This document shows, in pieces, positions 6,318-9,527 of a DNA stretch of 64,000 nt. Positions within the stretch are counted from its first letter, which is position 1. Each line of letters opens with the position of its first letter. The DNA comes from Burkholderia stabilis (lineage in GTDB: Bacteria; Pseudomonadota; Gammaproteobacteria; Burkholderiales; Burkholderiaceae), in assembly GCF_001742165.1 (NCBI RefSeq), contig NZ_CP016442.1:2790001-2854000 (forward strand), written 5' to 3'. The notes below the pieces were generated by a model. It had not been told where the DNA came from. It saw only the letters and a program-made list of their open reading frames with translations, and searched no databases. A program made the position numbers and the translations under genes.

Positions 6318-8630
6318 TTAATGAGCGGTGCCGGCGTCCGCCGCTTTCGCGGGGGGCGTCGCACGCTGGTTGTCGTCCCGCGGCGCGACAGCGAGCGGTT
6401 GCGCGTCACTGGCGGGGCGGCGCGGCCGGTGCGGGCGCCGGATCGGCGGCAGGCTCGCGGGCATCGGCGCCGCGGCGCTCGCGCTGGCGTTCGCATTCGC
6501 CGGCTGCGCCGCGCCGACGCTGGCGCCGGCAGCACCGGCCGCACCCGACGCGTCGGGCGCCGAGGCGGCCGAGGCCGCATCCGCCGCGCTGGCCGCGTTC
6601 GGCACGACCGGCTGCGGCAGCGCCTTGAAGCCGGCCGCGACGGCGGCGGGCTTGTTCGCGTCGCCGATCACCGGCGCGTTGACGGGTTCGGTCGCCGACG
6701 CCGCGGCCGCCACGGCCGCGGCCTCGTTCTTCGGGTTCTGACGGTCGATCAGGTAGAAGTCGAGCACGCGGCGCGCGATCGGGCCCGCGGCCTGCGCGCC
6801 CCAGCCGCCGTTCTCGACGACCAGCGCGACGGCGATCTGCGGATGGTCGACCGGTGCGTACGCGATGAACAGCGCGTGGTCGCGCAGGTGCTCGGCGAGC
6901 AGGTGACCCTTGTAGTTCGAGCCCTGCAGCGAGAACACCTGTGCGGTACCGGTCTTGCCGGCGGCGAGGTACGGCGCGCCGCGGAACACCTTGTACGCGG
7001 TGCCGGACGGGTTCTCGATCACGTTTTCCATCCCGCGCTTCACGACGTCGATGTCGGCCTGCTTGAGCGGGATCACTTCGCTTTCCTTCGGCACGGTCAG
7101 GCGGCGCCCGCGCGAGATCGGATCCTCGACTTCCTTCACGAGGTGAGGCTTCATCACGACGCCGTTGTTCGCGAGCGTCGCGGTCGCGTGCGCGAGCTGC
7201 AGGATCGTGAACGAGTTGTAGCCCTGGCCGATCCCGAGGCTGATCGTCTCGCCGTCGAACCACTTCTGCTGCGCGGCCTTCTTGAACGCCTTCTTCTTCC
7301 AGTCGGTCGACGGCAGGATCCCGCGCGCTTCGCCCTGGATGTCGATCCCGGTGATCTGGCCGAAGCCGAACGGCTTCATGAAGTTCGCGATCGCGTTCAC
7401 GCCGAGGTCGCGCGCGAGCATGTAGAAGTAGGTGTCGTTCGACACCATGATCGCCTTGTTCATGTCGACCCAGCCCTGGCCCGAGCGCACGTCGTTGCGG
7501 AACGTGTGGCCGCCGAACGTGAAGTAGCCGGGATCCTGGAAACCCCAGCCCGGCGAGCGCTTGCCGAGCGTCAGGCCCGCGAGCGCCATGAACGGCTTGT
7601 ACGTCGAGCCGGGCGGGTAGGTGCCGTGCAGCGGGCGGTTCAGCAGCGGCTTGTCGGTCGAGGTGTTCAGCTCGTCCCAGGTCTGCTGGTCGATGCCGTC
7701 GACGAACGAATTCGGGTCGAAGCTCGGCGACGATACGAACGCGAGCACGTCGCCCGTCTTCGGCTCGATCGCGACGAGCGCGCCGCGCTTGCCGGCGAAC
7801 GCCTGCTCGGCGACCTGCTGCAGCCCGATGTCGAGCGACAGCACGAGGTTGTTGCCGGGCGTCGCCTGCGTGCGCGACAGCGTGCGCACCGGCCGGCCGC
7901 CGGCCGTCACCTCGACTTCCTCGAAGCCCGTCAGCCCGTGCAGCTCGGTTTCGTAGCTCTGCTCGACACCGATCTTGCCGATGTAGTCGGTGCCCTTGTA
8001 GTTGTTCGCGTCGCGTCGCGGATCGTAGTTTTCCTGGTCGCTGTCATTGTCGTCGCTCATCGCGTCGATACGATCCTGGTCGCGCTTCGAGATCCGGCCG
8101 ATGTAGCCGATCACGTGCGCGGCGGTCGTGCCGAGCGGGTATTGGCGGAACAGCCGCGCGCGCACGTCGACGCCGGGGAAGCGGAAGCGCTGCGCGGTGA
8201 AGCGTGCGACTTCCGCGTCGGTGAGCCGTGTGCGGATCGGCAGGCTCTCGAAGTTCTTCGAGTCTTCCTGCAGCTTCTTGAAACGGCGGCGGTCGCGAGC
8301 GTCGATCGGGATGATCTCGGACAGCTTGTCGATCGTGTTGTCGAGCGTGTCGTCGAGCTTCGACGGCGTGATCTCGAGCGTGTAGGCCGAGTAGTTCTTC
8401 GCGAGGATCACGCCGTTGCGGTCGGTGATGATCCCGCGGTTCGGCACGATCGGCGCGACCGAGATGCGGTTTTCCTCGGCCTGCAGCGCGTATTTGCCGT
8501 GCTGCATCAACTGCAGGTAGAAGAAGCGGCTCGCGAGCAGCCCGAAGCAGACGAACACGAACACGCCCGCCGCCGCGACGCGCAGGCGGAACTTCGAGAG
8601 CTGCTGTTGGGTGTCGTTGAATTCGGTCAT
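6318..8630 (-). CDS. mrdA: Penicillin-binding protein 2 (elongasome transpeptidase)
   Basis: Class B PBP that crosslinks peptidoglycan during elongation; partner of RodA and MreC. It has one N-terminal membrane anchor (about 17-40), a PBP dimerisation domain, and the transpeptidase motifs S342-T-Y-K345, S397-N-D399 and K559-T-G561. At 770 residues it is about 130 longer than the E. coli protein; the excess is a C-terminal Ala/Pro-rich low-complexity tail after about residue 640. No good Shine-Dalgarno is seen before the ATG: the sequence upstream is the inverted end of a MITE-like element starting 5 bp away, so this gene's leader has been rebuilt by an insertion. Confidence 0.95.
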   Translation of the reverse strand: MTEFNDTQQQLSKFRLRVAAAGVFVFVCFGLLASRFFYLQLMQHGKYALQAEENRISVAPIVPNRGIITDRNGVILAKNYSAYTLEITPSKLDDTLDNTIDKLSEIIPIDARDRRRFKKLQEDSKNFESLPIRTRLTDAEVARFTAQRFRFPGVDVRARLFRQYPLGTTAAHVIGYIGRISKRDQDRIDAMSDDNDSDQENYDPRRDANNYKGTDYIGKIGVEQSYETELHGLTGFEEVEVTAGGRPVRTLSRTQATPGNNLVLSLDIGLQQVAEQAFAGKRGALVAIEPKTGDVLAFVSSPSFDPNSFVDGIDQQTWDELNTSTDKPLLNRPLHGTYPPGSTYKPFMALAGLTLGKRSPGWGFQDPGYFTFGGHTFRNDVRSGQGWVDMNKAIMVSNDTYFYMLARDLGVNAIANFMKPFGFGQITGIDIQGEARGILPSTDWKKKAFKKAAQQKWFDGETISLGIGQGYNSFTILQLAHATATLANNGVVMKPHLVKEVEDPISRGRRLTVPKESEVIPLKQADIDVVKRGMENVIENPSGTAYKVFRGAPYLAAGKTGTAQVFSLQGSNYKGHLLAEHLRDHALFIAYAPVDHPQIAVALVVENGGWGAQAAGPIARRVLDFYLIDRQNPKNEAAAVAAAASATEPVNAPVIGDANKPAAVAAGFKALPQPVVPNAASAADAASAASAPDASGAAGAAGASVGAAQPANANASASAAAPMPASLPPIRRPHRPRRPASDAQPLAVAPRDDNQRATPPAKAADAGTAH

Positions 8631-8634
8631 GCGA

Positions 8635-8923
8635 CTAGGGTCTATTTACATATGGAACGTGCATGCGTTGCCACGAGAACGGCCGCTCGCGAGGCGCGTG
8701 ACGCCGCGAATACTGGACGTATTCGCAAGGAGCGCAACGCAGCGAGCGGCCGTTCTCGTGGCAACCCCAAACTTAAAATTCATTCCAGGGGAATGCCCGA
8801 AATCGCCCGTATGGCGGCGTCGCTCGTCGCTTGTTTGGCTCGGCCAAACGGCGCTCCTCACTTCTTGCCCTACGAGCGATTTCGGGCATTCGCATGTACG
8901 TTCCATATGTAAATAGACCCTAG
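8635..8923. mobile_element. MITE-like palindromic element between mreD and mrdA
   Basis: A 289-bp non-coding element bounded by 33-bp inverted repeats (8635-8667 and 8891-8923; one mismatch). Its outer ends are CTAG, a palindrome that could be a 4-bp target duplication. Inside are two more perfect inverted repeats, 24 bp (8667-8690 / 8742-8765) around a small hairpin (8706-8712 / 8720-8726), and 16 bp (8791-8806 / 8876-8891) around another (8833-8839 / 8843-8849). It has no transposase and short ORFs through it look like by-products of the palindromes. It occupies most of the 384 bp between mreD and mrdA and would form a long hairpin in the operon mRNA. The family is not one I can name with certainty. 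Confidence 0.75.
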
Positions 8924-9014
8924 GTCTATCCAACCCGCGCGCGGGCGGGCGAGGTGCCGCCCCGGAGCGCAGTGCGCGGACGTGGGGGCGGCGGGTAGTC
9001 AAGGTCGGTCCGGC

Positions 9015-9527
9015 TCAGATGGGGCGCGTATCGTCCGGATCGACCGGGCGGCGTTGCGGCATCAGCAGCAGGTGGCTCGCGATCGGCCACAGCGCGGCCT
9101 CGACGAAGCCGTCGACCAGGTAGCGCCAGCCGGGGAACGCGGCGCCCATTACGAGACGGATCACGAACGGCACGAGCTGCGCGACGACGAGCAGCGGCGT
9201 CACGTACAGCACCTGCACGCCGATCGGCATCCACAGCACGCGGCGGTGGATCGTGATCGCGCCGTACGACAGCAGCGTATAGGCGAGCGCGTGCTCGCCG
9301 AGCAGCCCCGCGTCATGCACGTCCATCAGGATGCCGAGCGCGAACGCGACGCCCATCCCGACCTTGCGCGGCTGGTGGATGTTCCAGAACAGCAGCACGA
9401 GCGCGACGAAGTCGGGCACGCCGGGCAGGCGGCCCCACGGCATCAGGTTCAGCAGGAACGCGGCGGCGAGGCTGAAGACGATGAAGTACGGATTGACCGG
9501 CTGCAGGATGTATTGCGGGCGGTTCAT
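9015..9527 (-). CDS. mreD: Rod shape-determining protein MreD
   Basis: Small inner-membrane protein of the elongasome that works with MreC and the MreB filament to keep rod shape. It is 170 residues with five or six hydrophobic segments and no enzyme motif, as usual. Recognition rests on the NPYFIVFSLAAAFLLNLMPW type N-terminus and its place. Its ATG overlaps the mreC stop by 4 nt (ATGA). A 384-bp gap holding the palindromic element separates it from mrdA; these genes are normally closely spaced. Confidence 0.92.
   Translation of the reverse strand: MNRPQYILQPVNPYFIVFSLAAAFLLNLMPWGRLPGVPDFVALVLLFWNIHQPRKVGMGVAFALGILMDVHDAGLLGEHALAYTLLSYGAITIHRRVLWMPIGVQVLYVTPLLVVAQLVPFVIRLVMGAAFPGWRYLVDGFVEAALWPIASHLLLMPQRRPVDPDDTRPI

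Follow-up and report, generated by a model that had tools for sequence, protein, structure and literature searches.

The element between mreD and mrdA

The window analysed here is a stretch of 64,000 nucleotides from the Burkholderia stabilis genome (contig NZ_CP016442.1, positions 2,790,001 to 2,854,000). The spacer between the minus-strand genes mreD and mrdA is occupied by a MITE built of nested inverted repeats, with the following features:

6318..8630, minus strand: mrdA (PBP2-like; name taken from an earlier note on this DNA), start codon at 8630, from the list of open reading frames
8636..8637, no strand: TA target duplication on the mrdA side, from the empty-site comparison and the flanks
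8638..8920, plus strand: MITE core, 283 bp, GGGTC...GACCC, from repeat analysis, the empty-site comparison and the flanks
8638..8666, plus strand: terminal inverted repeat on the mrdA side, 29 bp of the core, from the inverted repeats and the alignment
8667..8765, plus strand: hairpin 1, perfect 24-bp arms 8667-8690 and 8742-8765, loop 8691-8741
8791..8891, plus strand: hairpin 2, perfect 16-bp arms 8791-8806 and 8876-8891, loop 8807-8875
8892..8920, minus strand: terminal inverted repeat on the mreD side, from the inverted repeats and the alignment
8921..8922, no strand: TA target duplication on the mreD side, from the empty-site comparison and the flanks
9015..9527, minus strand: mreD, upstream of the spacer, from the list of open reading frames

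The inverted ends, taken as 33 nt (8635-8667 and 8891-8923), are 97% complementary, in agreement with the single mismatch that the earlier note had described, and both of the perfect internal repeats that it reported are present, the 16-nt one being the core of a 30-nt repeat (8786-8815 and 8867-8896) that is 87% complementary. The CTAG that the note placed at the tips of the element is also there, but it belongs to the target, with the duplicated TA inside it, and not to the element, whose core is 8638-8920. Between position 8635 and the mrdA ATG (8630-8628, minus strand) there are 4 nt (8631-8634) and not 5 as had been stated. Folded as RNA, positions 8625-8935 reach -192.4 kcal/mol; 100 shuffled sequences average -105.95 (sd 5.18), and none was as stable. 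With a z of -16.7 the fold lies far beyond chance. Open reading frames cross the element; searches with two of them, 8611-8916 (plus strand) and 8646-9002 (minus strand), gave no Pfam or NCBIfam match at E ≤ 0.1, consistent with the earlier view that it encodes no protein. The element is thus short (283 bp), with inverted ends of 29-33 bp and no transposase, as in a MITE. A scan against Rfam 15 gave four weak microRNA matches, all far under their gathering scores.

A repeat family dispersed through Burkholderia

The B. stabilis genome (G000; 8.53 Mb in three contigs) has two full copies, the one at mrdA and a second on contig 2 that is 91% identical, together with diverged partial copies. All 37 of the same-genus genomes searched gave a match to the family (E ≤ 1e-3, some weak only), while none of the 24 searched from elsewhere in the order did so. 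Eight records of a plasmid collection also match, from Burkholderia (six), Paraburkholderia (one) and Caballeronia (one). No match to the element was seen in the phage records searched, nor any exact match to one 23-mer in the viral contigs. Among the matches listed from the open-access literature, none describes a Burkholderia MITE of this kind.

From the best-scoring hits, which are not a random draw, 82 distinct full-length copies were excised after removal of overlapping hits (L006-L008) and partial copies; leaving out two members of a sister family (L003 and L036) gave 80 main-family copies for alignment. The window copy is flanked by TA, as are 52 of these 80 on both sides, with a further 13 having TA on one side and 15 on neither. 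The 82 copies occupy 55 sites, 15 of which are filled in more than one genome, and at 14 of these 15 the orientation is uniform, which disfavours independent insertion at every shared site. Dispersed copies with the same ends, the flanking TA and the existence of empty sites, including that of all 29 relatives fetched at the mrdA locus, support a real, mobile MITE family. The mobility suggested in the earlier note is therefore supported, and the outcome that it named as contrary, a single copy with no empty site, was not what was found.

A number of individual copies are of interest in themselves. L003 (G000 C1:386881-387097), L036 and L037 belong to the sister family, with other ends (GGGCCTGTTC...) and an interior that is 74-78% identical. 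L166, at 403025-403312 of the Paraburkholderia sprentiae plasmid pl1WSM5005, lies between two genes on the same strand; a RuBisCO-like gene starts 18 nt beyond it, an arrangement resembling that at mrdA. Hairpin 2 varies among L075, L076, L077 and L139 in its number of 27-nt inner arms: with two of them (inverted), one or none, the core is about 340, 310 or 283 bp long.

Empty and filled sites before mrdA

A match to mreD was found in 60 genomes; the junction was read at 30 of the loci, plus L009 for genome G014. In all 29 of the relatives fetched the mreD-mrdA spacer is 94-121 nt long and lacks the element, and in 27 of them a TA lies within 9 nt of the mrdA ATG. The junction is filled in 2 of the 65 genomes of the genus, G000 and G014 (judged to be Burkholderia sp. 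Bp9143), as determined by an exact junction pattern scan that tolerates no mismatches and that diverged ends would escape. A related copy, with ends GGGGCTGTTTTCCCATGAAAC or near to it, is found about 8 bp past the mreB stop, at the mreB-mreC junction, in 3 of the 30 loci having both anchors (L041, L042 and L047); L009 ended short of that junction.

The two filled genomes sit apart on a tree of the flanks (mreD and the start of mrdA). G014 groups with G063 and G064 (support 0.92) and G000 with G011 and G036 (node support 0.42 and 0.22), and all four of these neighbours are empty at the junction. The two mrdA elements are 96.8% identical and in the same orientation, with 9 differing columns overall, one of them a gap; 0 of 68 arm pairs differ, as against 8 of the 144 remaining positions. 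The tree disfavours vertical inheritance of the insertion by both genomes, though on the G000 side the support is only 0.42 and 0.22. Two insertions from a common source, or a single insertion followed by local exchange, fit better than descent, and a short tract may have been exchanged between the two lineages.

Ends shared with an IS5-family insertion sequence

The outer 14 bp of the MITE family consensus, GGGTCTGTTTACAT (GGGTCTATTTACAT in the window copy), are common to a rare IS5-family insertion sequence (IS). A search for an exact 15-mer, which occurs in 11 of 120 genomes of the bacterial family, turned up an IS 824-826 bp long in G006 and G185. Its ends are GGGTCTGTTTACATT and GG(G/T)TCTGTTCACATT with TA on both sides, and in the first open part of the transposase there are matches to PF13340 and NF033580, of the IS5 family, the latter presumably corresponding to the IS427 group. 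The IS thus has both the outer 14 bp and the TA flanks of the MITE family, differing from it in carrying a transposase. Among related transposase loci, 3 of 11 show the ends with TA. By sequence the MITE ends are of the IS5 type, making the IS5-family IS a candidate partner for mobilisation.

Matches to the IS transposase (E ≤ 1e-30) are present in 10 of 65 genomes of the genus, including G014 (61% identity, one stop), with none at this threshold in G000. The B. stabilis genome has eight IS5-like matches, whose ends differ in the five best (L142-L146) and were not resolved in the remaining three. In G014 two contigs, at L101 (C31:1-77) and at C84:63-77, break just within an IS5-type IS end that carries the outer 14 bp of the MITE, so that this genome probably has several copies of the IS.

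In the complete, copy-rich genomes G024, G023, G020 and G034 no transposase-bearing pair of ends was found other than MITEs entered by an IS110-family IS. The latter account for two 1.4-kb end pairs in G024, which were considered as autonomous copies and rejected. In both of these (L068, C1:361851-363275, and L069, C2:3506368-3507792) the IS110-family IS lies inside the hairpin-2 loop at the identical element position, 223/224, suggesting that the loop is a target of this IS. Single ends also occur in G020, G023 and G024; they yielded no paired ends enclosing a transposon and have the appearance of decayed copies.

Paired changes in the arms

In the alignment of the 80 copies, positions of the end repeats occur as several types of Watson-Crick pair with few mismatches; pair 11, for example, is AT in 53 copies, GC in 15, CG in 9, TA in 2 and AC in 1. 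The closest pair of copies at each of 14 shared sites was compared, giving 952 pair comparisons, the flipped copies L079 and L080 being excluded (which removed one of the 15 sites) and pair 24 omitted from the end-repeat counts both here and in the mismatch tally. There were 19 two-sided and 14 one-sided arm changes. The rate of change in the loops (121/2017) predicts about 114 single arm changes, against the 33 changes seen, and random pairing of loop positions gives 4.1 two-sided changes (maximum 12 in 200 draws) against the 19 observed. Pooling the 43 possible comparisons of copies at a shared site, though they are not independent of one another, gives 82 two-sided and 103 one-sided changes where about 595 changes are expected and random pairs give 36.9 two-sided (maximum 63). 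When one arm changes, its partner at the same site tends to change with it, and this keeps the arms matched.

The hairpin-1 loop is inverted in 2 of the 80 copies (L079 and L080), two others having loops too short to judge, and at the sites of these two copies the loop is forward in other genomes. In L137 the whole element is reversed relative to L133 at the same site. To judge from the sequences, the inverted loop and the paired arm changes resemble template-switch mutation. Arm homogenisation and spacer inversion are given as results of template switching in two papers (PMC8604942; PMC8794818), which concern yeast coding DNA and RNA genes; both features are seen also in the MITE family, here as a pattern obtained from a bacterial MITE by comparison. 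It would seem that template switching, or recombination between the arms, is the likeliest cause of the matching.

A possible though doubtful reason for the arms remaining paired is that the element has an RNA function under selection, rather than correction at the level of the DNA. It would be in keeping with arm changes being rarer than loop changes and often paired, and since they are fewer than correction alone predicts, selection may act too. Pair 24 also has 33 G-T mismatches to 1 C-A, a skew that might stem from a strand-specific constraint on the RNA or from a single old source copy. Outside this pair, however, mismatches do not favour G-T over C-A (11 to 15 in the end repeats, 5 to 12 in hairpin 1 and 3 to 3 in hairpin 2), and inversion of the loop and of the whole element is the mark of a mutational process. 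That the differences at a site come from replacement by other copies, through ectopic conversion or re-insertion, with the pairing made elsewhere, is unlikely: length classes do vary between genomes at one site, but the orientation is the same at 14 of the 15 shared sites. Moreover the second B. stabilis copy, L002, differs from the same-site L029 of G003 by four two-sided arm changes and one one-sided, and the only other full copy in its genome today is that at mrdA, which could not supply the L002 arms.

Predicted effect on the mrdA start

The mrdA start sequence was recovered in all 31 leaders (29 empty and 2 filled), and none has a Shine-Dalgarno 4-mer (GGAG, GAGG or AGGA) at -20 to -4. 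Within the window such a motif precedes mreB, mreD and rodA, with none before mreC. The earlier note was right that mrdA has no Shine-Dalgarno sequence, but its proposal that the element had displaced one is rejected, as the empty relatives are equally without it and the absence was therefore not caused by the insertion.

With a leader of 400 nt, the mean predicted probability that positions -20 to -1 are unpaired is 0.07 in G000 and 0.05 in G014, compared with 0.24-0.68 (median 0.47) in the 29 empty relatives. The contrast is smaller for -10 to +3 (0.22 and 0.17 in the filled genomes; lowest empty value 0.22) and disappears at +1 to +15 (0.65 and 0.56; empty median 0.60). The fold prediction thus favours blocked initiation of mrdA. 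When only 120 nt of leader are folded, containing just the mrdA-side part of the element, the openness of -20 to -1 is 0.59 (G000) and 0.58 (G014), which suggests that the start would become accessible once the long stem was cut.

It is somewhat unlikely that the MITE is instead a neutral passenger, with mrdA expression maintained by coupling to mreD, by unfolding by the ribosome or by a start site located past the element. As none of the 31 leaders has a Shine-Dalgarno motif, initiation at mrdA already relies on something else, and most copies at shared sites look to have been tolerated over long times, but the region -20 to -1 is predicted to be far more closed than in any empty relative. 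A scan for promoter-like sites of the sigma-70 type, the only type sought, found none at the window copy. Attenuation, in which some transcripts would end at the element before reaching mrdA, is made possible by its very stable fold and by one terminator-like site within it on the mrdA strand (8795-8781), but is highly improbable given that this site is weak (6 pairs, 3 of them G-C, tail AATTTTAAGT), that the number of sites is near chance (2 found, 0.6 expected from shuffles, sd 0.9) and that no run of T follows the outer stem.

Discussion

It is rather probable, taking the comparisons together, that the spacer between mreD and mrdA received, at a TA, a MITE whose ends are of the IS5 type, that the arms in this family are kept matched through template switching or arm recombination, and that the output of mrdA depends on processing of the insert. 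In an mre-mrdA-rodA message the element would fold as a single nested hairpin, the base of which would end 4-7 nt before the mrdA AUG and cover the start region. That region would be freed if the long stem were cut, for which RNase III is the likeliest enzyme, and mrdA output would then hang on this cleavage.

The CREE/NEMIS elements of Neisseria, whose insertions also make a TA duplication, are likewise short and gene-less, carry inverted ends and occur in numerous copies close to genes. The family described here, likened to them by description, differs in its two nested hairpins and in ends (GGGTCTGTTTACAT) common to an IS5-family IS, and in the window copy no promoter-like site of the sigma-70 type was found. 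Both RNase III cutting within messages and inversion are reported for Correia elements in two papers (PMC2649163; PMC10969869).

A broader proposal, tentative and rather unlikely as a whole, is that of a self-mending hairpin MITE. Its arms would be rematched at replication, with occasional flips of the loop or of the whole element, so that every copy would stay a lasting RNA processing switch; on two branches, and at one and the same TA, the acquisition of such a hairpin would have made expression of the essential mrdA dependent on its being cut.

New here are the matched-pair arm changes at fixed sites and the loop inversion in 2 of 80 copies. The insertion is limited in species and lies directly before an essential gene, the empty relatives providing natural controls. 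Copies at the same site allow pairing of the arms that is driven by mutation to be separated from that driven by selection, an issue for which RNA genes are the usual material. They also caution that in repeats of this sort an RNA function does not necessarily follow from paired changes.
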